From Streptomyces sp. NBC_00341 (GTDB taxonomy: Bacteria > Actinomycetota > Actinomycetes > Streptomycetales > Streptomycetaceae): a stretch of 64,000 bases of DNA. Every line of letters begins with the position of its first letter. Position 1 is the first letter of the stretch. The stretch lies in contig NZ_CP108002.1 in assembly GCF_041435055.1 (NCBI RefSeq), forward strand, positions 248,001-312,000, in the 5' to 3' direction. The notes beneath the pieces were generated by a model. It was not told the DNA's origin, did not search any database, and saw only the letters and a program-made list of their open reading frames with translations. The position numbers and the translations under genes are program-made. This document shows, one piece after another, positions 7,501 through 21,548 of this stretch.

Positions 7501-7806
7501 ATGAACGTCGTGTTCACCGGCCTCGTGATCGAGTGGCGCGGGCCCTCGCCGTTCTACTTCGTCACCGTGCCCGAGGAGGAGGCGGCCGACATCCGTGAGG
7601 TGGCCGGGATGGCCACGTACGGCTGGGGCGTGATCCCCGTCGAGGCCCGCATCGGTGAACTCGCCTTCGCCACCTCGCTGTTCCCCAGGGACGGCGGCTA
7701 CCTGCTCCCGTTGAAAGGCGCCGTGCGGGGGCCACTGGGCCTCTCGGCGGGGGACCGGGCGAGCGTGGAGATGACCGTGCGCCTTCAGGGCGGGTCGCAG
7801 AAGTAG
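7501..7806 (+). CDS. DUF1905-domain protein
   Basis: A 101-residue protein that is almost wholly a DUF1905 domain, a small beta-barrel-like fold often annotated in Streptomyces. Recognisable parts are FTGLVIEWRGPSPFYFVTVP at the start, GWGVIPVEARIG in the middle and the LPLKGAVRGPLGLSAGD segment near the end. No signal sequence or membrane segment is present. The function of the family is unknown; some relatives are fused to YdeI-like domains. Confidence 0.82.
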   Translation: MNVVFTGLVIEWRGPSPFYFVTVPEEEAADIREVAGMATYGWGVIPVEARIGELAFATSLFPRDGGYLLPLKGAVRGPLGLSAGDRASVEMTVRLQGGSQK

Positions 7807-7863
7807 GTTTGCCAAAGCGTTATCCGTACGCCTCTTGAGTCACCCCGGGGCGTGCCGCACAGT

Positions 7864-7894
7864 CATGTATGCGCTTACGGAATGCGCATACATG
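7864..7894. promoter_or_regulatory. LacI-type double operator before the sugar-binding protein
   Basis: A perfect 11-base inverted repeat (CATGTATGCGC / GCGCATACATG) flanks TTACGGAAT, ending 18 bases before the SBP start codon. Each half overlaps a sequence close to the LacI/CcpA-type operator TGTAAGCGCTTACA. The left one reads TGTATGCGCTTACG. The motif TGTATGCGCTTAC recurs at 11713 in front of the endonuclease-glucosidase unit. Binding here would occlude the promoter, giving repression relieved by a sugar. The regulator gene is not in the window. Confidence 0.7.
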
Positions 7895-7912
7895 AGCTGC
7901 CGGAGGAGCCGT

Positions 7913-9163
7913 ATGACCCGCACCGCCAGGACCGTCCGGTCCGCCGTCACCGCTGCCACGATGGTGACGGCGCTCGCTCTGACCGGCTGTGGGGGCAGCG
8001 GTTCCGGTCAGGCGAAGGCCGGCTCCGAGCAGACCCTCACCGTGTGGGTCATGGGCGAGGAGGGCAACCGAATCCAGCCGGTCGCCAAGGAGTTCACCGC
8101 GAAGCACCCCAACATCACGGTCAAGGTGACCCCGGTCGGCTGGGACGTCGCGCACCAGAAGCTGCTGTCCGCCGCGGCGGCCGGGACGCTGCCGGACATG
8201 GCCCAGATGGGCTCCACCATGATGGGCGAGTTCATCGAACTCGGCTCCCTGGAGCCGGTGGACACCAAGGTCTTCGACGAGAACGACTTCTTCCCCGCCA
8301 CCTGGAAGGGCAATGTGGTGGACGGCACCGCCTACGGCGTCCCCTGGTACGCCGACACCCGGGCCCTCTACTACCGCACCGACCTCGCCGAGAAGGCGGG
8401 GACCGACAAGACACCGGCCACCTGGAAGGACATGCGGGCCATGGCGGCCGCGTACAAGAACAGGGCCGGGACGGACTGGGGGCTGTCCCTCCAGCCCGGG
8501 GGCGCGGGAGCCTGGCAGGGCTGGGCCCCCTTCCTCTTCTCGGCCGGAGGTTCGCTGCTCGGCAAGGACGGCAGGCCCGCCCTGGACTCCCCCGAGTCGG
8601 TGGAGGCGCTGACCGAGTTCCAGCACTACTTCGACGCGGGGCTCGCCAAGAAGAACTTCGTGCCCGGCCAGGACGTCGTGAAGGACTTCGCCGCCGACCG
8701 GATGCCGATGTTCGTGTCCGGCCCCTGGATCGTCCAGAACCTCGCCGAGCAGCCCGAGCTGAAGGGCAAGTGGAAGGTCGCGCCGGTGCCGGCCGGCAAG
8801 AGCTCCACCTCCTGGGTCGGCGGCGCCTCACTGGTCACCTTCAAGGACAGCGGGCACAGGGCGGCGGCCCAGGAGTTCACGAAGTTCCTGACCACGCCCG
8901 AGATGCAGGCCCACTGGTACGAGATCTCCAAGGCGCTGCCCGCCAACAAGGCCGCCTGGGACCAGCCCGCCCTGAAGAACGGTGGTGACTCCCTGGCCGT
9001 CTTCGAGAAGTCGCTCGCCACCGCGAAGGACATCCCGCCGTTGCCCAAGTGGGAGGAGTTCACCGCCCAGATCGACAGCGCCCTGGAGAAGGTGTCGGCC
9101 GGGGCCGACCCCGCCGCGACGGCCGCGAAGCTCCAGAAGGACACCGAGGGCCTGATGGACTGA
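7913..9163 (+). CDS. ABC-transporter sugar-binding lipoprotein
   Basis: A 416-residue extracellular solute-binding protein (family 1), anchored to the outer face of the membrane. A lipoprotein signal peptide ends in LALTGC, with lipid-carrying Cys26. The mature part follows the maltose-binding pattern (LTVWVMGEEGNRI, YGVPWYADTRALYYR, FVSGPWIVQ). The ATG at 7913 has a strong ribosome site (GGAGG at 7902). Earlier in-frame ATGs would lie within the operator. No permease or ATPase gene follows, so this is an orphan binding protein that must use a transporter encoded elsewhere. The same operator motif links it to the glucosidase at 9243, suggesting an alpha-glucoside ligand. Confidence 0.9.
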   Translation: MTRTARTVRSAVTAATMVTALALTGCGGSGSGQAKAGSEQTLTVWVMGEEGNRIQPVAKEFTAKHPNITVKVTPVGWDVAHQKLLSAAAAGTLPDMAQMGSTMMGEFIELGSLEPVDTKVFDENDFFPATWKGNVVDGTAYGVPWYADTRALYYRTDLAEKAGTDKTPATWKDMRAMAAAYKNRAGTDWGLSLQPGGAGAWQGWAPFLFSAGGSLLGKDGRPALDSPESVEALTEFQHYFDAGLAKKNFVPGQDVVKDFAADRMPMFVSGPWIVQNLAEQPELKGKWKVAPVPAGKSSTSWVGGASLVTFKDSGHRAAAQEFTKFLTTPEMQAHWYEISKALPANKAAWDQPALKNGGDSLAVFEKSLATAKDIPPLPKWEEFTAQIDSALEKVSAGADPAATAAKLQKDTEGLMD

Positions 9164-11959: not shown

Positions 11960-13597
11960 CTAGTGCCCGGACGGGCTCGGCGCCGGGTCCTCGGGGCGTG
12001 CGGCGCCGGCGTCCTCCGTCACGCGGGTGCCCGGGTGCCACAGCGAACAGATGAAGGCGAGCACGAGGGCACCGGCCATGGAGTAGAACACCCACTGGTT
12101 CGCCTCGGCGAAGTCCAGCCGGACCGCCTGCATCGACTCCCGGGTGAGCTCGGCGGCCCTGCCGTGTCCCGTGGGCTGTCGCGCGTCGGCGTTCCCGGTG
12201 ACGGCTTCGGCGATGTGCCGGGCGGCGGTGCGGGCGGGCCCGGACGGCACGCCCTCGGCCCGCAGCGTCTCACCGACACGGTTCACCGTGACATGCGTCA
12301 GCACCGTGCCGAACACCGCGAGACCGATGCTGGCGGCGAAGTTGCGGACCGTCTGCGTGATGCCGGTGACCTCGCCGTAGGAGGCGCCGATCGACCGGTT
12401 GACGGCGTCGGTCGAGGCGGGTGCGAGCAGGAAGCCGATGCCCGCGCCCGCGAGGGCCGCGTACGGCCACTGGTCGTGCATCGAGAGCGTCGTCAGCTTG
12501 GCGGCCCAGAGCGCGAAGCCGACCGCGCCGAGTGCGGCACCGATCTTCAGGGCCGGGCGGGCGCCGCGCTTGTCCAGGATGCGGCCGCCCCACTGGGAGG
12601 CGAGGGCGAACCCCACGAAGAAGTAGAGGAGGTAGAGCGCCGCCTGGTTGGGCGAGGCGCTCAGGGAGACCTGGGCGTACACCGAGGCGAAGAAGAGCAC
12701 CGGCACGAAGGCCGTCATGGCGAAGAAGAGCACGAGCATGTCGACGGAGAACGCCCGGTCCCGGAAGACCTGGAGTCTGACGAGCGGGTGGCGCCGGCGC
12801 AGTTCGAAGCGGCAGAAGTAGGCCAGGACCACGAGCCCGACCACGATGCACGTCCAGGTCGACCAGGTGTCCCAGCCCCAGGACACGGACTGCTGGAGCC
12901 CCAGCACGGTCAGCCCCATGCCGACCGCCATCAGCACGGCGCCCGGCACGTCCAGCGGTTCCCGTCTCGAGCTCTCGGGGATGTGCGCGAGCAGGGCCAG
13001 GACGATGGCGACCACGGCGACGGGGACGTTGATCCAGAAGATGGCACGCCAGGTCCATTCGGTGAGCCAGCCGCCCAGCAGCGGGCCGATGGCCGTGAGT
13101 CCGCCCGAGACGCCGAAGAACAGCGCCAGCGCGCGCCCGCGCCGTTCCACCGGGAACACCGCGATGACCACGGCGAGCGCCGCCGGGAACATCAGGGCCG
13201 CGCCGAAGCCCTGGATCGCCCGGAACCCGATCAGCCACGCCTGGGCGTAGTCCCCCGACGGCACGGCGCCGCAGAGCGCGGAGGCGATGACGAAGACGAG
13301 CGTGCCGCAGAGCATGACGCGGCGGTGGCCGAAGATGTCGGAGAGCCGGCCGCCGAGCGCGAAGAACGCGGCGAGCGTGAGCAGGTAGGCGTTGATGACC
13401 CACTGCATCTGCGAGGAGGTGAGCCCCAGCTCGTGAATGATGTCGGGTGCGGCGATCGCCACGATGGTCTGGTCGATGAACGTCATCGACACGGCGAACA
13501 TCATCGCGGCCAGTGCCAGCGTCTGGTTCGGCGGCCCGCTCGCACCGGCCTTCGCGGGGCGGTCCGGACCCTGCGCCCGGGGCGCCGAGTTACTCAT
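11960..13597 (-). CDS. DHA2-family MFS multidrug exporter
   Basis: A 545-residue major facilitator of the 14-helix DHA2 family (EmrB/QacA type), a proton-driven exporter in the inner membrane. Motifs: FIDQTIVAIAAPDI in helix 1 (residues 39-52), GGRLSDIFGHRRVM (loop 2-3 motif A), RAIQGFGAALMFP (motif B) and SGGLTAIGPLLGGWLT (motif C, antiporter signature). The ATG was chosen at MSNSAPRAQ; the longer frame upstream is not protein-like. It is divergent from yhfZ with a 139-base shared spacer carrying the yhf operator. It may therefore belong to the yhf regulon, perhaps exporting a pathway product. Confidence 0.92.
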   Translation of the reverse strand: MSNSAPRAQGPDRPAKAGASGPPNQTLALAAMMFAVSMTFIDQTIVAIAAPDIIHELGLTSSQMQWVINAYLLTLAAFFALGGRLSDIFGHRRVMLCGTLVFVIASALCGAVPSGDYAQAWLIGFRAIQGFGAALMFPAALAVVIAVFPVERRGRALALFFGVSGGLTAIGPLLGGWLTEWTWRAIFWINVPVAVVAIVLALLAHIPESSRREPLDVPGAVLMAVGMGLTVLGLQQSVSWGWDTWSTWTCIVVGLVVLAYFCRFELRRRHPLVRLQVFRDRAFSVDMLVLFFAMTAFVPVLFFASVYAQVSLSASPNQAALYLLYFFVGFALASQWGGRILDKRGARPALKIGAALGAVGFALWAAKLTTLSMHDQWPYAALAGAGIGFLLAPASTDAVNRSIGASYGEVTGITQTVRNFAASIGLAVFGTVLTHVTVNRVGETLRAEGVPSGPARTAARHIAEAVTGNADARQPTGHGRAAELTRESMQAVRLDFAEANQWVFYSMAGALVLAFICSLWHPGTRVTEDAGAARPEDPAPSPSGH

Positions 13598-13704
13598 GGC
13601 CTCATGTTCTCCGCGCCCATCCCCCGGCGCACGCCGGGCGGACCAGCAGGAGGAGTCCGAGGCGCGCAGGGCGGTCGGGAGCGGGCTTCCGGAAGGGGTC
13701 TTGT

Positions 13705-13728
13705 CAGTATCCAGAATCCTGGTTACTG
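13705..13728. promoter_or_regulatory. 24-bp palindrome, candidate YhfZ operator (copy 1)
   Basis: A near-perfect 24-base palindrome with arms CAGTA, CCAG on the left and CTGG, TACTG on the right. It ends 8 bases before the yhfZ GTG start and is 108 bases from the divergent exporter gene. A second copy (20 of 24 bases identical) lies at 14727 before yhfY. Position and duplication argue for binding by YhfZ itself. Confidence 0.75.
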
Positions 13729-13736
13729 TTTGATTC

Positions 13737-14675
13737 GTGAACGACTTCGACGACCGCTTCCTCACCCGCAACGGCCTCGCCGCGCGGCAGCTCGCCGTCC
13801 TGCTCCTGCACCACGAGCCGGACACCCGCCTGCCCCGTGTGCGCGACTTCGCGCAGGAGCTGGGCTGCGGAAACGGAACCGTTCAGGCCGCCCTCCACCT
13901 GCTGGAGGAGGCCGGCGCGATCTCGACGACCGCCCGCGGCCATCTCGGCACCTTCCTCGTCCACTCGGACCGCACCGTCCTGTGGCGGCTGTCCGGCCTG
14001 GGAACCCTGCTCGCGGCGATGCCGCTCCCCTACTCACGGCGGTACGAGGGCCTGGCGACCGGGCTGCGCAGCGCGTTCGAGGAGGCGGGCGCGCCGTTCG
14101 CGATCACGTTCATGCGAGGCGCCGGGGCCCGGACCGCGGCGCTGCTGGAGGGCAAGGTCGACCTGGTCGTCCTGTCCCGGTTCGCCGCCGACCAGCTGAT
14201 CGCCGAGCACCCGGTGGAGCTGGTGGCCGATCTCGGCCCCGCCACCTATGTCGGCGCGCACGGCATGCTGGTGCGGCACGGGGTGGACCTGGACACGCCC
14301 GGACTGCGGGTGGCGGTCGACCACGCCTCAGAGGATCTGCGGATGCTCGTGGAGCGGGTCTTCGCCGGCCGGGACGACGTCGAGTGGCGGGAGGCGTCGT
14401 ACATGCAGCTGAGCGATCTGTTCGCGCGGAACGAGGTGGACGCGACCGTCTGGAACCTGGACGAGGCGCAGGACCGGCTCGGGATCGGCGTAGACGTGCT
14501 CCCTCTCGGGGACGAGGTCAACCGGGAGCTGGCACTGCGCAACTCCACCGCCGCGGTGATCGGCCGGTCCGAGGGGGCCAAGGCGCTCGCCGCGGTCCGT
14601 GACTCGCTCGATCTGTCGCTGGTGACCCGGCTGCAGAGCGAGGTGCTGCGCGGTGAGCGCGTCCCCTCCTACTGA
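13737..14675 (+). CDS. yhfZ: YhfZ-family GntR-like transcriptional regulator
   Basis: A 312-residue regulator. The N-terminal 75 residues form a winged helix-turn-helix (RLPRVRDFAQELGCGNGTVQ). The rest resembles a periplasmic-binding-protein-like effector domain (GLATGLRSAFEEAG, GKVDLVVLSRFAADQL, YVGAHGMLVRHG), as in E. coli YhfZ. The GTG start lies just 8 bases behind the palindrome, and no Shine-Dalgarno sequence is seen, so translation may be leaderless or weak. It is the first gene of a yhf-type locus and likely senses a small molecule to control it. Identity rests on the whole gene order (yhfZ-Y-U-T-php-S-X-W), which is hard to explain otherwise. Confidence 0.88.
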   Translation: MNDFDDRFLTRNGLAARQLAVLLLHHEPDTRLPRVRDFAQELGCGNGTVQAALHLLEEAGAISTTARGHLGTFLVHSDRTVLWRLSGLGTLLAAMPLPYSRRYEGLATGLRSAFEEAGAPFAITFMRGAGARTAALLEGKVDLVVLSRFAADQLIAEHPVELVADLGPATYVGAHGMLVRHGVDLDTPGLRVAVDHASEDLRMLVERVFAGRDDVEWREASYMQLSDLFARNEVDATVWNLDEAQDRLGIGVDVLPLGDEVNRELALRNSTAAVIGRSEGAKALAAVRDSLDLSLVTRLQSEVLRGERVPSY

Positions 14676-14726
14676 CCTGCGGGCTCCGTGACCGGGGTCT
14701 CATAACTCCGGGGCGTCGCTCGCCCT

Positions 14727-14750
14727 CAAAATACAAAATCCTGGTTACTG
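14727..14750. promoter_or_regulatory. Candidate YhfZ operator (copy 2)
   Basis: This sequence matches the 13705 palindrome at 20 of 24 positions. The right half (AATCCTGGTTACTG) is identical and the left half is degenerate. It lies 21 bases before the yhfY start and marks a second promoter inside the locus, so the metabolic genes can be controlled apart from yhfZ. Confidence 0.7.
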
Positions 14751-14770
14751 TTGATTTTAGGAGGATCACC

Positions 14771-15157
14771 ATGGACGACCAGCTCGCACTGCGGATCCAG
14801 CTCTTTCGCGAGGGCGGCACGGTCAGGCCAGAGGTGGCCGACTTCGTCACCACCGAGCTGACCGCCCTGGAGGCGGAGGGCCGCACGGTCACCGAAGCGA
14901 CGGCAGGCATGCTGACCAGCCACCTGATGATGGCGCTCGGCCGGATCCTGGACGGCGAGGCGATCGAGCAGTTCCTCACCGACGACCAGGTCGCCGCCGA
15001 GCTGGCCGGACATCCCGACGCCGTCGCCCGCGCCCGTGCCGTATCGGCCCGCGCCGAACGGGAGCTCGGGGCCGCGCTCCCGGAGTCCGAGGTCAACTTC
15101 CTCGGGATGCACCTGGCCGTCCTGGCGCAGCAGCCGCCCGCCGCACCCACGTCCTGA
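14771..15157 (+). CDS. yhfY: YhfY-like PRD-domain protein
   Basis: A 128-residue protein consisting of a single PRD-like domain, the fold phosphorylated on histidines in sugar-PTS antiterminators. The visible helices are LRIQLFREGGTVRPEVADFV and GMLTSHLMMALGRILDGEAI, with His36-type and His117-type positions (TSHLMM; FLGMHLAVL). It has no DNA- or RNA-binding domain attached, as in E. coli YhfY. A perfect ribosome site (AGGAGG at 14759) precedes the ATG. A regulatory role in the yhf operon is inferred. There is no PTS gene nearby, so its phosphorylation partner is unclear. Confidence 0.8.
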   Translation: MDDQLALRIQLFREGGTVRPEVADFVTTELTALEAEGRTVTEATAGMLTSHLMMALGRILDGEAIEQFLTDDQVAAELAGHPDAVARARAVSARAERELGAALPESEVNFLGMHLAVLAQQPPAAPTS

Positions 15158-15221
15158 GCGTCACGGCAGGCGTCCCGCCCCCTACCCCGCAGCAGAAACC
15201 GACGCAGAGAGAAGAACAGCC

Positions 15222-15578
15222 ATGACGAAGATCCTCACCGGTGGAGTCGGCAAGGTCGAGGTCACCGCGGCCATCGGCAAGCTCGGCATCGACTCGCTCG
15301 ACGTCGTCGCCTCCAGCGACATGGACGCGGCGATGAAGCTCCGGGCCGGTCAGGCCGACTACTACCTGGGCACCTGCCACACGGGCGCCGGCGCCTCGCT
15401 GGGCGTGCTCGTCGGCCTCATGGGCAGTGCCGCCTGCCACACCTTCGGGCGCAGCGTTCCGACGGAGGAGCAGGTCACCGCCCTGCTCGCCGAAGGCAAG
15501 AAGGTCTTCGGCTTCTCGATGGACCAGATCGACATCATCGCCCCCCTCATGGCGCGCGCCATCGCCGCCCGCGGCTGA
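15222..15578 (+). CDS. yhfU: YhfU-like DUF2620 protein
   Basis: A 118-residue DUF2620 protein. Recognisable segments are ILTGGVGKVEVTAAIGKLG at the start (glycine-rich loop), YYLGTCHTGAGASLGVLVGL at about residues 48-67 and ACHTFGRSVPTEEQV. The start at 15222 has the site AGAGAAGAACAGCC upstream and removes 62 non-protein-like residues. The fold resembles PTS-type small cytosolic components, but no catalytic cysteine/histidine role is established. In E. coli the homologue lies next to the YhfT membrane protein, as here (43 bases apart), which suggests the two form one transport or processing complex. Confidence 0.88.
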   Translation: MTKILTGGVGKVEVTAAIGKLGIDSLDVVASSDMDAAMKLRAGQADYYLGTCHTGAGASLGVLVGLMGSAACHTFGRSVPTEEQVTALLAEGKKVFGFSMDQIDIIAPLMARAIAARG

Positions 15579-15621
15579 ACAACAGCCTGTTCTGATCATC
15601 CCGGGCACCAAGGAGTGACTC

Positions 15622-16956
15622 GTGAGCACCACACTCGCCGCCGGCGCCAGCCTCGACTTCACGCTGGCCCAGCAACTGACCGTGATAGCCCTCTGTGCGC
15701 TGACGGCCTACATCTCGCACATGGCCCTGGCCGTCTTCAACGACGGGGTACGCCCCTTCATGCTGGACTTCATCCAGGGGCGCACCACCCGTAGCGCGAC
15801 GACGGCTGTCTCGTTCGGTCTGTCCGCCGGGTTCATCTTCGGACTGGGTGCGCCTATGGCCCTGTCCACGGGTGTGCTGAACCCGTGGCTGGTCTTCCTG
15901 CCCACGGACATCCTCGGGATGCTGGCACCGAAGAAGTGGCTCGCCCCCATCCTCGGTGCCGCCTGGGGCGCGGTGGTCGTGTTCGGCCTGAACGGCGCGA
16001 ACAACGTCGCGCACGATCTGCCGGTCGACTTCCTGACCGCGATGCAGCAGATGTCGACGCCGATCCTCTTCCTGTTCTCGCTGTTCCCGGTGCTCGCCAT
16101 CACCAAGCAGTTCGGCCGCAAGTGGGGCGGTATCGCGGGCGTCCTCGAACTGGCCCTCGTCGTCATGACGATGAAGCTGTGGCCGAACATGTTCGCCGGA
16201 GCGCTGGCCATGGCCGTCGGCGTGCTGATGCTCATCGGCCTCGCGGTCGCCAAGGACGTCCGGCAGCGCAAGGCCGACCGGGCGGCGGGCGTCGAGGAGA
16301 TCGTCCTGGAGGACGATCCGATGGCGTCGCTGTTCAGCGCGAGCGCGGCCCGGCTGCGCAGGTACCTGCCGCTGTTCATGGTGCTCGGGGCCGGGGTCTG
16401 TGTGCTCGCCCAGATGCACATATTCGGCGGCGGTGAGGCCACCAGCTTCCTCATCGCGAAGGGGCAGTACTCGGAGGCCGCCCAGGTCGACTTCTACCGG
16501 GTGTTCGGCTTCATCCCGCTGATCGCGACCACCGCGCTCGCCTCCGGGGCGTACGGCATCGCCGGTTTCACGCTGGTGTACCCGATCGGCTACCTCATGC
16601 CGAACCCGTTCCTGGCCGCTGTGGTCGGTGCGCTCGTGTTCGCGGCCGAGGTGCTGGCCCTCTCCTGGATCGGCCGGGTCCTCGGCAAGCTGCCCAGCGT
16701 CCGGGACTCCTCCGAGCACCTGCGCAGTGCCATCGGTGACACCCTCCAGCTCGCGATCCTCTTCGGTTCGCTGATGGCCGCCAACGCCATGGGCGGCGGG
16801 CTCGGCATCCTCGTCGTCGGCGGGCTCTATCTGCTGAACGAGGCGATGGGCCGCCCCGTCGTGAAGATGGCCGCCGCGCCGGCGGCCGTGATCATCGGCG
16901 GCATCCTGCTCAACATCCTGTACTGGCTCGATCTGTTCACCCCGGTCAAGGGCTGA
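15622..16956 (+). CDS. yhfT: YhfT-family membrane transport protein
   Basis: A 444-residue polytopic membrane protein of the YhfT family, with about 10-12 hydrophobic segments (LTVIALCALTAYISHMALAV near residue 20, then AVSFGLSAGFIFGLGAPMAL, ALAMAVGVLMLIGLAVA, LVYPIGYLMPNPFLAAVVG). It carries the conserved FNDGVRPFMLDFIQG near residue 38 and a GANNVAHDLPVDF motif in the middle. The GTG start has a clear AAGGAG site. It most likely imports the compound processed by the downstream enzymes. The substrate is unknown in all species as far as I am aware. Confidence 0.9.
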   Translation: MSTTLAAGASLDFTLAQQLTVIALCALTAYISHMALAVFNDGVRPFMLDFIQGRTTRSATTAVSFGLSAGFIFGLGAPMALSTGVLNPWLVFLPTDILGMLAPKKWLAPILGAAWGAVVVFGLNGANNVAHDLPVDFLTAMQQMSTPILFLFSLFPVLAITKQFGRKWGGIAGVLELALVVMTMKLWPNMFAGALAMAVGVLMLIGLAVAKDVRQRKADRAAGVEEIVLEDDPMASLFSASAARLRRYLPLFMVLGAGVCVLAQMHIFGGGEATSFLIAKGQYSEAAQVDFYRVFGFIPLIATTALASGAYGIAGFTLVYPIGYLMPNPFLAAVVGALVFAAEVLALSWIGRVLGKLPSVRDSSEHLRSAIGDTLQLAILFGSLMAANAMGGGLGILVVGGLYLLNEAMGRPVVKMAAAPAAVIIGGILLNILYWLDLFTPVKG

Positions 16957-17047
16957 CACCCCAGCCGCCGGGACCTGTTCACCCCCGCGTCAGGGCCCCA
17001 GCGCCCGCTGACCGGACGGGCCCGTACACGAAGAAGGAATCCCCACG

Positions 17048-18004
17048 ATGAATCACCCCGCCCCGCACACCCTGCGCACCGTCACCGGTGATGTCGCGAC
17101 CGCTTCGGTACGCGGACCGGCCCTCGCCCACGAGCATCTGGTCCTCGATCTGGACCAGCGGGGCGACGGTGCGGCCGTCCTCGACCCGCGACGCCACGCG
17201 GCGGCCGTGACCGCCGAGCTGAGCGCGCTGCGGGAGGAGTTCGGGCTCTCCCTCGTCATCGAGCTGACCTGCCGGGGCATGGGACGCGACGTCGGCGCCC
17301 TGGCGGCGATCTCCCGGGAGGCGCGGGTCGCGGTGGTCGCCGCGACCGGCTGGTACTACGAGCCGTTCCACACCCCGGAGATCGACACCGCCGACGTGGA
17401 ACAGCTCACCGCGGTCCTCGTCCGCGAGATCGAGGACGGCATCGGCGCGACCGGCGTCCGGCCCGGCGTCCTCGGTGAGATCGGCAGCCACGGGGACGTT
17501 CCCACGGCTCCCGAGGCCAAGGTGCTGCGGGCCGGCGCACGGGCCGCGCGGGCCACCGGGCTCTCCCTCGCCACCCACGCGCAGCTGGGCCGGGGCGGGC
17601 TCGCCCAGCTGGAACTGCTCACCGGTGAGGGGCTGCCCGCCCACCGCGTCAGCATCGGCCACCAGGACCTGCTCGACGACCCGGGCGTCCACCGGGAGCT
17701 CGCGGCGCGCGGGGCGTACGTCGCCTTCGACACCGTGGGCAAGTCGGCCTACCAGAGCGACCGGACGCGGCTGCGGCTGCTGCTGGCCCTGGTGGAGGCC
17801 GGGCACGCCGACCGGGCGCTGCTCAGCTGCGACATCTCCCGCCACGGCTACCTGCTGGACGAGGGCGGCCAGGGCTACGGGCACCTCTTCCGCGGTTTCC
17901 TGCCCGAGCTGCGCGCGGCGGGCGCCGACGACGATCTGATCGACCTGCTGACCCGACGCAATCCGCTGCGCTTCCTGACCGGCGCGAACGTGGAGGAGAA
18001 CTGA
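17048..18004 (+). CDS. php: Phosphotriesterase homology protein (Php/YhfV)
   Basis: A 318-residue amidohydrolase-superfamily TIM barrel of the phosphotriesterase-homology type, expected to bind two metal ions. Ligands that can be read are His28 and His30 (AHEH), Glu144 (VLGEIGSHG, in place of the carboxylated lysine of true phosphotriesterases, as in E. coli Php), His177 (ATHAQ), His205 (SIGHQD) and Asp262 (SCDISRHG). It is probably a lactonase, phosphodiesterase or amidase in the cytoplasm. The natural substrate is unknown. It lies 91 bases after yhfT and 1 base before yhfS, so it is in the same transcript. Confidence 0.92.
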   Translation: MNHPAPHTLRTVTGDVATASVRGPALAHEHLVLDLDQRGDGAAVLDPRRHAAAVTAELSALREEFGLSLVIELTCRGMGRDVGALAAISREARVAVVAATGWYYEPFHTPEIDTADVEQLTAVLVREIEDGIGATGVRPGVLGEIGSHGDVPTAPEAKVLRAGARAARATGLSLATHAQLGRGGLAQLELLTGEGLPAHRVSIGHQDLLDDPGVHRELAARGAYVAFDTVGKSAYQSDRTRLRLLLALVEAGHADRALLSCDISRHGYLLDEGGQGYGHLFRGFLPELRAAGADDDLIDLLTRRNPLRFLTGANVEEN

Positions 18005-18005
18005 C

Positions 18006-19130
18006 ATGAGCCCCGTACCTCCCGTGCTTCCCGCCACCTTCCCGCTGGCGACCGTGGATCTGGACGACGCCGTGGCCAGGCAGTTCCGGCTGCTGGAGGC
18101 CACCGCCGCCCACTTCGAGGGCCAGCAGCTGTTCTCGTCCGACGCGGGTGTCGTCCCCGGTCTCGGCCGGCCGCGCACCACCGCCCGGGTGGAGGCCGTG
18201 CTCGCGGACTTCTTCGGGGCCCAGGACGCCGCCTTCGTCCAGGGCGCGGGCACCGGTGCGATCCGGGCCGCCCTCAACGCGGCCGTCCGGGCGGGCGACC
18301 CGCTGCTCATCCACCGCGCCCCGGTCTACCGCACCACAGAGGTCACCCTGCGGGGCATCGGCGTGCAGACCGTCGAGGCCGACTTCAACGACGCCTCGGC
18401 GCTCCGCGAGGCGCTGGAGTCCGGACGCTTCCGGTGGGCGTACGTCCAGCACACCAGGCAGCGGCTCGCGGACTCCTACGATCCGGCCGAGGTCATCGCC
18501 GCCTGCCGGGCCGCGGGGGTGCGCACGATCGTCGACGACAACTACGCCGTGATGCGCACGCCCGCCGCCGGAGTGGAGCTGGGAGCCGACGCCTCCTGCT
18601 TCTCCCTCTTCAAGCTGCACGGGCCGGAGGGCGTCGGCCTCGTCGTCGGCGCGCGCGACCTGGTCGAGCACGTCCGCCGCGACAACTACTCCGGCGGCGG
18701 GCAGGTCCAGGGCCACCAGGCGCTCGACGCCCTGCGCTCCCTCACCCACGTTCCCGTCATGTGGTCCGTGCAGTCCCGGGTGGGTGCGGAGGTCGCGGAG
18801 CGGCTCGCGGCCGGCGAGGTGGACGGGGTGGCGCAGGTGCGCATCGCCAACGCCCAGGACCGCTGCCTGCTCGTCCGGCTCGACCGGCCCGTCGCGGCGG
18901 GACTGCCCGCCGTCGCCGCCCGGTTCGGAGCCGCCCCCTACCCCGTCGGCTCCAACTCCCGGTACGAGATCGCGCCGCTCTTCTACCGGATGTCCAGCTC
19001 GGCTCTCGACGACGCCCCCGAACTGGCCGACTGGACCGTACGCATCAACCCGATGCGGGCGGGCGCGGACCTCGTCATCGACATCCTGCGCCGCTCGCTC
19101 GCCGCCCTGGACGACCCGAAGGACGACTGA
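18006..19130 (+). CDS. yhfS: YhfS-family PLP-dependent enzyme
   Basis: A 374-residue fold-type I PLP enzyme like E. coli YhfS. The Schiff-base lysine is Lys203 in SLFKLHGPEGVG, the cofactor aspartate is near residue 177 (TIVDDNYAVM), and the phosphate-binding loop is QGAGTGAIRAAL (residues 79-90). It probably works on an amino acid or aminophosphonate-like intermediate. Spacing is 1 base from php and 2 bases to yhfX, typical of tight translational coupling. The start is ATG; a GAGGAGA ribosome site lies inside the end of php. Confidence 0.9.
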   Translation: MSPVPPVLPATFPLATVDLDDAVARQFRLLEATAAHFEGQQLFSSDAGVVPGLGRPRTTARVEAVLADFFGAQDAAFVQGAGTGAIRAALNAAVRAGDPLLIHRAPVYRTTEVTLRGIGVQTVEADFNDASALREALESGRFRWAYVQHTRQRLADSYDPAEVIAACRAAGVRTIVDDNYAVMRTPAAGVELGADASCFSLFKLHGPEGVGLVVGARDLVEHVRRDNYSGGGQVQGHQALDALRSLTHVPVMWSVQSRVGAEVAERLAAGEVDGVAQVRIANAQDRCLLVRLDRPVAAGLPAVAARFGAAPYPVGSNSRYEIAPLFYRMSSSALDDAPELADWTVRINPMRAGADLVIDILRRSLAALDDPKDD

Positions 19131-19132
19131 CC

Positions 19133-20296
19133 GTGTTCCTCGACACCGTACTCACCCGCAATCCCGGGCTCGTGGACGCCGCGGCCGCGCTGCACCGGAA
19201 CGGCGACATCCCGCCGGACACCTACGTCGTCGACCTGGACGCCGTCGAGGCGAACGCCGCGCTGCTGGCGGCCGAGGCCGACCGCCTCGGGATCAGCCTC
19301 TGGTTCGTCGTCAAGCAGCTGGGCCGCAACCCGGAGCTGATCCGGGCCATCGCCCGGCACATCCCCCGCTCGGCCGCCATCGACCCGGCGGAGGCCCGCA
19401 CCCTGCACGCCGCCGGAGCCCGGCCCGGCAACCTGGGACACCTCGTCCAGATCCCCCGGCGCGCGCTGCCCGAGATGCTGGCCTGGCGCCCGGAGACCGT
19501 CACGGTCTTCGACCTGGCCAATGCCCGTGCCGTGTCCGACGCGGCCCGCGAACTGGGCTTCGTCCAGCCCGTCCTGATCAGGCTCGAAGGGGCCGAGGGC
19601 GACGTCTATCCCGGTCAGGAGGGCGGCGTACCGCTCGACCGCCTGGACGCCTTCGCCAAGGAGGCCGAAGCACTGGACGGCATCCGGATCGCCGGTGTCA
19701 CCGCCTTCCCCTGCGTGCTGTGCGACCCGGTGACGGGCGTGCCCGCCGCCACCCCCAACTTCGGCCTGGCGCTCAAGGCACGCGAACTCCTGGCCGCACG
19801 CGGACACCGCGACCTCAAGCTCAGCGCCCCCAGCGCCACCTCGATGGCGTCCCTCCCGCTGCTCGCCGAACTGGGCGCGACACACGGCGAGCCGGGCCAC
19901 GCCCTCACCGGCACCACCCCGCTGCACGCCGTCGATCCGGCCCAGCCGGAGAAGCCCGCGTACGTGTACGTGAGCGAGGTCGCCCACACCCTGGACGACG
20001 GCCGCCCGGCGATATTCGGCGGCGGCTTCTACCCCCGCGCGCACATCCGCAGCGCCCTCCTGCCGCGCACCGGAACCCGCCTCGGTGTGCAGGACGCGCC
20101 CGCCGAGAACATCGACTACTACCGGCTGCTCGACGCGCCCGACCGCGCGGCGGACGCCCGTGCCGGGGACACCGCGCTGCTCGCCTTCCGTACCCAGATC
20201 TTCGTCACCCGCTCGACCGTCGCCGTCGTCTCCGGGCTCGCCTCCGGCACCCCCCGGCTGAACGGGCTGTACGACGCCCATGGCCGAGCCCTGTAA
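19133..20296 (+). CDS. yhfX: YhfX-family alanine-racemase-fold PLP enzyme
   Basis: A 387-residue fold-type III PLP enzyme. The N-terminal TIM-barrel part has Lys61 in WFVVKQLGRNPEL as the PLP-binding lysine and TYVVDLDAVEANAALL as the family opening. HGEPGHALTGTTP and FGGGFYPRAH give the cofactor phosphate and C-terminal barrel regions. The GTG start follows the yhfS stop by 2 bases. As in E. coli it sits between yhfS and yhfW. The two PLP enzymes plus Php and YhfW suggest sequential handling of an amino-group-containing, perhaps phosphorylated, compound. No reaction is proven. Confidence 0.9.
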   Translation: MFLDTVLTRNPGLVDAAAALHRNGDIPPDTYVVDLDAVEANAALLAAEADRLGISLWFVVKQLGRNPELIRAIARHIPRSAAIDPAEARTLHAAGARPGNLGHLVQIPRRALPEMLAWRPETVTVFDLANARAVSDAARELGFVQPVLIRLEGAEGDVYPGQEGGVPLDRLDAFAKEAEALDGIRIAGVTAFPCVLCDPVTGVPAATPNFGLALKARELLAARGHRDLKLSAPSATSMASLPLLAELGATHGEPGHALTGTTPLHAVDPAQPEKPAYVYVSEVAHTLDDGRPAIFGGGFYPRAHIRSALLPRTGTRLGVQDAPAENIDYYRLLDAPDRAADARAGDTALLAFRTQIFVTRSTVAVVSGLASGTPRLNGLYDAHGRAL

Positions 20297-20306
20297 GGAG
20301 CACCTC

Positions 20307-21548
20307 ATGGCCAAGACCGTCATCGTCGTCATCGACGGATTCGGCGTCGGCGCCATGCCCGACGCGGGCACCCTGCGCCCCGGCGACCTCAACGCCGACA
20401 CCTGCGGACACGTACTCGACCACTGCCGGGCCGCTTTCGTGCGCCCGTTGCGCCTGCCGGTGCTCGGGGCGCTCGGGCTCGGCCTTGTCCACCCGCACCC
20501 GGACCTGGCGCGCCGCACCCATCTGCCCGTTGCCGCGGGCAGGGCCGCGCTCGGCTACCCGGGCGCGGACACCTTCGCGGGGCACCAGACCATGATGGGC
20601 GCCGACTTCAGCCGGGTGACGGTGGCCCGGCTCGCCGACCACCTCGACGAGGTGTCCGGCGCTCTCACGGCCGCCGGTCACCGGGTCGAACGCCTGGACG
20701 GCAAGCCGCTGCTCGTCGTCGACGGGGCGGTCCTGGTCCACGACAACCTGGAGGCCGATCCGGGGATCAACTGGAACGCGTCCGGCCGCCTCGACGACCT
20801 CCCGTTCGACGGGCCCGGTGGCATCCTCGCCATCGCCCGTACCGTGCGTGCCGTCGCCCCGGTCGCGCGGGTCATCGCGGTCGGCGGCCACGCGGACGGC
20901 CCGCTCCGCGACTTCGTCCGCCCCGGCGACGGGGAATCGGTCGGTCTTGACACCCCGGCCACCGGCTTCTACCGCAACGGCGGCCTCCAGGTGCAGCACC
21001 TGGGCGCCCCCCTCGACCACACCCGCCAGCTCCCCGAGCTGGCGGCTCGGGCCGGAATCCCGGTCACCCTGGTGGGCAAGGCCGCCGACATCCTGGTGTG
21101 CGGGGCCGCGACCCGTCATCCGGCCGTCGCCACGGCCGACGTGCTCTCGCACACCCTGGACGCGGTACGCGCGGAGGGCGACGCCCTGGTGGTCGCGAAC
21201 GTCCAGGAGACGGACCTGGCGGGCCATCAGCAGGACACCGCGCGGTACGGGCAGCTGCTGGAGCAGGTGGACGCCGGGCTGGCCGGGCTCGTGGCACTGC
21301 TCGCGGCCCCCGGTGACCGGCTGATCGTCACCGGCGACCACGGCAACGACCCCACGATCGGCCATGCGCACCACACCCGGGAGTACGTCCCGGTGCTGAT
21401 CCACCGGCCCGGCGCAGATGGCGTGGAACTCCTGCCCGACGCGCACAGCCTGGCGGACGTCGGCGCGACCGCCGCCCTTTCGCTGGCGCTGGACCCGGAG
21501 GGCCTCGCCGAAGGCACCCCGCTGCACACGGGCCGCCGCGCGGCCTGA
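20307..21548 (+). CDS. yhfW: YhfW phosphopentomutase-like metalloenzyme
   Basis: A 413-residue alkaline-phosphatase-superfamily enzyme close to phosphopentomutase. Metal ligands and nucleophile that can be read are Asp10 (VIDGFGVG), Thr94 (GHQTMMG, nucleophile), Asp302 and His306 (ETDLAGHQ), Asp343-His344 (GDHG) and His355 (GHAHH). The second ATG was chosen because of the GTAAGGAG site 8 bases before it; the first one lies within yhfX. It probably moves or removes a phosphoryl group on the pathway's substrate. It is the last gene of the operon. Confidence 0.9.
   Translation: MAKTVIVVIDGFGVGAMPDAGTLRPGDLNADTCGHVLDHCRAAFVRPLRLPVLGALGLGLVHPHPDLARRTHLPVAAGRAALGYPGADTFAGHQTMMGADFSRVTVARLADHLDEVSGALTAAGHRVERLDGKPLLVVDGAVLVHDNLEADPGINWNASGRLDDLPFDGPGGILAIARTVRAVAPVARVIAVGGHADGPLRDFVRPGDGESVGLDTPATGFYRNGGLQVQHLGAPLDHTRQLPELAARAGIPVTLVGKAADILVCGAATRHPAVATADVLSHTLDAVRAEGDALVVANVQETDLAGHQQDTARYGQLLEQVDAGLAGLVALLAAPGDRLIVTGDHGNDPTIGHAHHTREYVPVLIHRPGADGVELLPDAHSLADVGATAALSLALDPEGLAEGTPLHTGRRAA

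Follow-up and report, generated by a model that had tools for sequence, protein, structure and literature searches.

An intact and probably locally regulated yhf-php gene set in Streptomyces sp. NBC_00341 with a candidate YhfZ operator

A stretch of 64,000 nucleotides from Streptomyces sp. NBC_00341 (assembly GCF_041435055.1, contig NZ_CP108002.1, positions 248,001 to 312,000 of the forward strand; hereafter the window) carries at positions 13737-21548 eight genes, all on the plus strand, in the order yhfZ, yhfY, yhfU, yhfT, php, yhfS, yhfX and yhfW (Table 1). Comparison with other genomes shows that the eight genes are conserved as a unit, that their active sites are intact and that a 21-bp operator-like motif occurs at two promoters only, and it is probable (leaving the class of substrate aside) that they form an intact, locally regulated catabolic operon. 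The set itself is not new: E. coli has it, with K-12 genes that still carry the labels putative or uncharacterized, and databases have names for its members. What seems to be new, given a literature searched by gene and family names only, is the 21-bp motif of Streptomyces, the different dyad of gammaproteobacterial loci, the predicted fold of YhfU, an operon that pairs YhfX with an M20 hydrolase, and the division into core and accessory genes. In agreement with a sequence-only reading made earlier of the same DNA, no function or substrate of the yhf genes was found in print among the records listed by that search (subscription journals being outside its coverage).

That reading had matched the eight consecutive genes one to one with the E. 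coli yhfS-Z/php set, which proved right: homologues of all eight are contiguous on one strand, YhfY being assigned by its PRD domain and by alignment only. Seven of the eight proteins pass their Pfam cut-offs (the PRD protein YhfY falls slightly under), and seven have E. coli K-12 counterparts with 32-48 % identity, while YhfY aligns with other YhfY proteins despite having no BLAST match in K-12. YhfZ passes the cut-off of NF041241, YhfX that of PF21279 and YhfS that of PF22475. The intergenic gaps from yhfZ to yhfW, taken from the coordinates, are 95, 64, 43, 91, 1, 2 and 10 bp, and the GC content of the operon (72.1 %) lies beside that of the window (71.6 %).

That the eight genes belong to one pathway is well supported, because they travel together. 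Genome contigs were scanned with a four-sequence YhfT alignment, which gave 126 relatives, and the locus counts below refer to the best 80 of these 126 (44 from Enterobacterales, 2 from Vibrio and 34 from Streptomyces); other phyla were likely missed, since the two peptide patterns of the scan were derived from proteins of E. coli and Streptomyces. In all 81 loci (the 80 and E. coli K-12) yhfU lies immediately 5' of yhfT. Among 296 actinobacterial genomes YhfT and YhfS_C match the same two, both Streptomyces, with YhfX_C matching these and two more, and among 299 genomes of the phylum of Vibrio YhfT and DUF2620 (above cut-off) match the same four; with the centre genome excluded and kinship ignored, the chance of such agreement is about 1 in 295 and about 1 in 4 million, respectively. 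The earlier proposal of a single pathway is supported by the conservation of the set, with recurrent regulatory sites, in Gammaproteobacteria, Streptomyces and a Fusobacteriota megaplasmid. Whether the genes usually occur apart had been named as its test, and YhfT, YhfU and YhfS do not, but YhfX by itself can be found apart as well. The complete set in a distant phylum was likewise read correctly, but its range is wider than had been supposed: YhfT relatives are named from Clostridium, Brachyspira, Alkalispirochaeta, Caloramator and Streptobacillus (names only, without neighbourhoods), and YhfT and DUF2620 have already been named by NCBI in many Streptomyces. Within this genus YhfT is patchy, with matches in 36 of 295 genomes (35 above cut-off). 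One Streptomyces YhfT (G639:C1:1746059-1747489) is matched in two neighbouring parts that run the same way.

It had also been claimed that the gene order differs from that of E. coli, with the regulator first in Streptomyces; the order does differ, but the regulator comes first in E. coli as well. E. coli K-12 (yhfZ-yhfY-yhfX-yhfW-php-yhfU-yhfT-yhfS, b3383-b3376) shares the eight homologues on one strand and the intact active sites, whereas Streptomyces has U-T-php-S ahead of X-W and another operator sequence. The E. coli order is found in 32 of the 80 loci and the complete set of eight in Streptomyces order in 24; two Streptomyces loci (L060 and L077) have all eight genes and an extra match. 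In L077 (Streptomyces varsoviensis, 7630-9006) a second, diverged yhfT lies between yhfZ and yhfY; it is 55 % identical to that of the window and branches in the YhfT tree as sister of the remaining Streptomyces copies included there. The megaplasmid of Cetobacterium somerae (NZ_CP092520) has the Streptomyces order, Z Y U T php S X W, which means that this order is not a local rearrangement, and that of E. coli may have been derived. Cetobacterium differs in a TTCA-N6-TGAA-type dyad before yhfZ and in an extra gene between yhfT and php (L088 15282-16313) for a 343-aa amidase-like protein, whose match to the Amidase family is weak (E 1.6e-4, under cut-off). In the tree of 45 chosen YhfT proteins the Streptomyces (support 0.999), the Gammaproteobacteria (0.998) and the Fusobacteriota/Spirochaetota/Bacillota (1.0) each group together, while the pairing of Streptomyces and Gammaproteobacteria as sisters depends on midpoint rooting.

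The impression that nothing in the operon has decayed is supported: the catalytic residues of php, yhfS, yhfX and yhfW are intact in Streptomyces and conserved across the aligned loci (sequences of at most 60 % of the E. coli length were left out). The six metal ligands of Php, including the bridging Glu, are present in 80/80 sequences, the Lys that binds pyridoxal phosphate (PLP) in 65/65 YhfS and 76/76 YhfX, and the Tyr of YhfS in 66/66; in YhfW, Asp10 is kept in 68/68, the nucleophile Thr in 67 of 68 (one unread) and the other ligands in 66-67 of 67. The roles of these residues we take to be those of the DeoB, phosphotriesterase (PTE) and PLP enzyme families. Five open reading frames (ORFs) were flagged as shorter than their match, namely yhfT and yhfS of L043, yhfS of L054, yhfX of L035 and yhfW of L080, the last two perhaps due to joined hits. 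In L043 (Trabulsiella odontotermitis strain 01) the frames of yhfT and yhfS end early, and the second record of this species (L044) had no frame flagged. Php belongs to the PTE family (PF02126) by model and metal ligands, and scores under the equivalog cut-off of E. coli Php (NF007373; 204.5 vs 486). YhfW resembles DeoB, its only solved relative, in its nucleophile Thr and metal ligands, but it falls under the DeoB cut-offs (135.8 vs 256 and 121.3 vs 341.2) and passes a YhfW-type model. The conserved His of YhfY is present in 77/77 aligned sequences.

The 21-bp motif is likely the operator of YhfZ, judging by where it occurs. In the 9.06-Mb genome it has two copies at no more than 3 mismatches, one before yhfZ and one before yhfY, and the reversed pattern has none at the same tolerance. 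In each of the 30 Streptomyces loci with a recognised yhfZ the motif precedes that gene (at most 4 mismatches), and in 28 of these 30 it precedes yhfY (at most 5); at 5 mismatches many loci also give a single minus-strand match, which in the window is the dyad read from the opposite strand. Two Streptomyces loci with long flanks (L062 and L078) lack yhfZ, together with yhfY in the former and yhfW in the latter, and have no operator motif, which is consistent with the motif being the site of YhfZ. A sigma-70 promoter scan requiring at least 9/12 matches reported none in the region of operator 1; the GTG start of yhfZ lies only 7 bp after the -10-like TACTGT, and the yhfZ mRNA is therefore likely leaderless. 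In Enterobacterales and Vibrio a TTCA-N6-TGAA dyad lies before yhfZ in 37/43 loci and between yhfY and yhfX in 20/42. In fact, 85 of its 119 copies in 890 kb are inside those two spots (9.8 kb), a density of 8.7 per kb vs 0.04 elsewhere, and some of the loci without the exact dyad have, by eye, one base altered; the Cetobacterium dyad was also recognised by eye. The simplest reading would be autorepression by YhfZ, with a recognition sequence that was altered in Streptomyces.

For YhfU (DUF2620) an RpiB/LacAB sugar-phosphate-isomerase fold is predicted, in which its loop cysteine (C-x-T-G-x-G) aligns with Cys66 of E. coli RpiB; this Cys is kept in 83/83 YhfU sequences. The protein differs from the RpiB/LacAB enzymes in its length (118 aa), in having no Asp-His motif and in adjoining yhfT. 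The RpiB profile alignment ends at residue 61, before the ring-opening His99, and Pfam LacAB_rpiB stays under its cut-off, being listed for one of the four YhfU tested (13.6 vs 24.7 bits). The predicted model of YhfT has a pLDDT (predicted local distance difference test) score of 82.

Not all eight genes are equally constant. php is found in 79 of the 80 loci and yhfX in 75, and the loci without them (one and five) end at contig edges. yhfS is missing in 15 loci, three of them (L035, L049 and L059) cut where it would lie, and yhfW in 14 (found in 66), six of them (L006, L041, L049, L051, L057 and L059) cut. The retention of php, yhfX, yhfU and yhfT suggests a core of uptake, hydrolysis and YhfX, and YhfS and YhfW would belong to separable branches. 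The genome of Yersinia proxima contains a second cluster of yhf type (L093 5768-10427), Y X W U T, and neither php nor yhfZ was found there.

YhfX also occurs outside the yhf operon. A tblastn search of plasmids with Cetobacterium YhfX gave 19 records, 5 with yhf-type YhfX and 14 others. Six of the 14 were opened, and in five of these, from Nitratireductor (2), Ruegeria, Rhizobium and Aminobacter, a ROK regulator, an M20 hydrolase, parts of a sugar-type ATP-binding cassette (ABC) importer and YhfX lie in a row; the sixth, from Embleya, carries no annotation there and has ROK-like matches on either side. The same operon is present in the actinobacterium G263, and in G285 an M20 gene follows a partial YhfX at the contig end. 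The M20 hydrolase is nearest to ArgE/DapE deacylases (161.9 vs a cut-off of 217.6) and the ABC binding protein to rhizopine, allose and ribose binders, all well under their cut-offs. This operon has in common with the yhf operon a YhfX-family enzyme with the conserved Lys and most motifs, but shares nothing else with it: the ABC importer and the ArgE/DapE-like hydrolase stand in place of YhfT and Php, and six of the seven aligned YhfX (Embleya included) have EPGN for EPGH. The position of YhfX beside an M20 deacylase suggests that its substrate is an amino acid released by hydrolysis, and by analogy Php might carry out this release in the yhf operon.

Following these results, a route can be proposed for the yhf operon, its chemistry being inferred throughout, next to a gene content, conservation, predicted fold and operator conservation that come from the comparison. 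YhfZ most likely binds the 21-bp motif and comes off the DNA once the substrate or an intermediate appears, while YhfY most likely couples expression to the phosphotransferase system (PTS) or to the phosphorylation state. The substrate would very probably be imported by YhfT, with YhfU as its constant partner or as the first enzyme. Php would then plausibly hydrolyse the imported conjugate (an amide, ester or lactone) and YhfX racemise or epimerise the freed amino-acid part, these two making up the core of the pathway, and YhfS, where present, may eliminate from the amino acid or transaminate it. Only tentatively might YhfW move a phosphate on and the RpiB-fold YhfU isomerise a phosphate-bearing sugar half; such sugar-phosphate roles of the two would make the substrate a conjugate of the amino-acid/sugar-phosphate type. 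Taken to its full extent this would be a new pathway for an amino acid-sugar phosphate metabolite, with a novel importer of YhfT and YhfU, with Php splitting the conjugate, YhfX/YhfS and YhfW/YhfU taking one half each, and the ROK-M20-ABC-YhfX operon running a related amide version of its amino-acid chemistry, which is rather unlikely to hold as a whole. The phosphate-bearing substrate that had been proposed before is a partial clue only, resting mainly on YhfW, which the Yersinia loci and some others lack. The earlier interpretation is partly supported overall, and it missed the RpiB fold of YhfU, the absence of yhfS or yhfW from some lineages and the second operon of YhfX. For the substrate problem the Streptomyces copy provides a two-site candidate operator usable in a reporter screen for the inducer, next to a division into core and accessory enzymes, a fold for DUF2620 and the pairing of YhfX with a deacylase and a sugar-type importer, and the question can now be tested in two unrelated bacteria.

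Several observations weigh against an intact, locally regulated catabolic operon as outlined. At the sensitivity of the search, yhfW is truly absent from seven Yersinia loci and L078, and yhfS from six uncut Yersinia loci, both Vibrio loci, L027, L033, L038 and L041; outside the 80, G541 is without yhfS and G594 without yhfW. With absences in these lineages neither late branch can be essential. No kinase is encoded in the operon, so that a phosphate would be present on the substrate beforehand, be gained on uptake or by group transfer, or be absent, with YhfW in another role. Transport by YhfT is assumed from its membrane character, as no solved relative was found and no known transporter matched, and in the profile alignment a gap stands opposite the N-terminal Asp-His motif of RpiB, which the shorter YhfU lacks. 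On the regulatory side, binding of YhfZ to the motif is a prediction, the dyad of operator 2 is incomplete (its left half being altered), and four Streptomyces loci give no motif match, two of which (L053 and L066) end at contig edges while the others are the yhfZ-lacking L062 and L078. Allowing 5 mismatches gives one unrelated plus-strand match in L076, and TTCA-N6-TGAA is found before yhfZ in 0/30 Streptomyces regions, the motif there differing from that of the other lineages. Transcription of the eight genes as one operon is presumed from their spacing only, and a methyltransferase-like ORF (by eye) lies on the same strand some 2 kb ahead of the operon in 13 of 32 Streptomyces upstream flanks (L071 and 12 others).

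Other explanations account for parts of these data. It is conceivable, if doubtful, that the operon serves amino-acid salvage, in which a D-amino acid bound as N-acyl or amide (or peptide-like) is freed by Php or by an M20 hydrolase/amidase encoded elsewhere, racemised by YhfX and deaminated or subjected to elimination by YhfS, leaving side or repair roles for YhfW and YhfU. The ArgE/DapE-type neighbour of YhfX in the five plasmid records, G263 and G285 points this way, as do the amidase-like gene of Cetobacterium and the Yersinia loci without yhfW, but the second operon has a ribose/allose-type importer, YhfU has a predicted sugar-phosphate-isomerase fold, and YhfW is both frequent and intact in its nucleophile. 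Unlikely, on balance, is a sugar-acid or lactone pathway with Php as a phosphosugar lactonase, YhfU and YhfW as a paired isomerase and mutase that supply the pentose phosphate pathway, and an amino sugar acid as the substrate of the PLP enzymes. Operons of the dga type, which handle amino sugar acids, contain a PRD protein, a small glycine-rich protein, membrane proteins and a PLP lyase. A PRD protein is present here too, the RpiB fold would fit, Cetobacterium YhfU shows a weak co-linear match to Gly_rich_SFCGS, and the model of phospho-furanose lactonases (PTE relatives) scores Php, if weakly (40.9 vs 630 bits). The Gly_rich_SFCGS match is, however, not significant (E 0.09) and was seen in one of the four YhfU tested, the operon is without aldolase, dehydratase and kinase, YhfX is racemase-like and not a known sugar-acid enzyme, and the dga analogy gained nothing usable from the literature search. 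Less probable still is that YhfU and YhfT form a PTS-like phospho-relay transporter, with YhfU as a IIB-like carrier and YhfY as the PRD sensor. The phospho-cysteine of PTS IIB proteins is positioned after strand 1, whereas the invariant Cys52 of YhfU comes after strand 3. Finally, the patchy distribution in Streptomyces and flanks that differ by lineage could indicate that unrelated enzymes are kept together by chance or transfer, as a cluster that has decayed or is a mere passenger, which is hardly credible in view of active sites intact across deep clades, conserved operators and co-occurrence in two phyla.

Table 1 Features of the yhf-php region (positions in the window) and of the separate YhfX operons (positions in the named loci)
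Feature	Position	Strand	Description
promoter/operator 1	13701..13729	+	-35-like TTGTCA 13701-13706; 17-bp spacer with dyad CCAGAATCCTGG 13711-13722; -10-like TACTGT 13724-13729
yhfZ	13737..14675	+	GntR/HTH_41 regulator with YhfZ_C ligand domain, 312 aa; PF14503; NF041241 342.6 vs 260; relative PDB 2ozz
operator 2	14731..14751	+	same 21-bp motif with 2 mismatches, before yhfY; -10-like TACTGT 14746-14751, poor -35
yhfY	14771..15157	+	PRD-only protein, 128 aa; PF00874 E 2.7e-4, 21.6 vs 23 bits (under cut-off); conserved His51
yhfU	15222..15578	+	DUF2620, 118 aa; RpiB/LacAB-like predicted fold; Cys52 aligns with E. coli RpiB Cys66
yhfT	15622..16956	+	multi-helix membrane protein, putative permease, 444 aa; PF10797 512.6 bits
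php	17048..18004	+	PTE-family binuclear metallohydrolase, 318 aa; PF02126; PDB 4lef/1bf6; H28 H30 E144 H177 H205 D262
yhfS	18006..19130	+	fold-I PLP enzyme, Cys/Met-metabolism-like, 374 aa; PF22475; PDB 4j8l; Lys203, Tyr108
yhfX	19133..20296	+	fold-III PLP enzyme, alanine-racemase-like, 387 aa; PF21279, PF01168; PDB 4kbx; Lys61
yhfW	20307..21548	+	phosphopentomutase-like metalloenzyme, 413 aa; NF009049 456.1 vs 254; nearest PDB 3m8w; Thr89, D10 D303 H307 D344 H345 H356
ROK-M20-sugar ABC-YhfX operon, without YhfT	L095 3248-10965; L096 4323-10952; L097 3308-10966		Alphaproteobacteria/actinobacterium set
ROK-M20-sugar ABC-YhfX operon, without YhfT	L099 3285-10970; L100 2162-9965; L107 3253-9957		Alphaproteobacteria/actinobacterium set

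Around the operons some further genes were noted. Upstream of the Vibrio barjaei locus (L045 327-7602) lie, on the same strand, genes for a RidA-like protein, an M19 dipeptidase and a DUF3726 protein (by Pfam), together with aldehyde-dehydrogenase-like and BCCT-like genes (by eye). In the window a big transporter-like gene (11960-13825, minus strand; MFS/DHA2-like by eye) is divergent to yhfZ, and its listed start overlaps the operator region; its true start is probably at about 13597.

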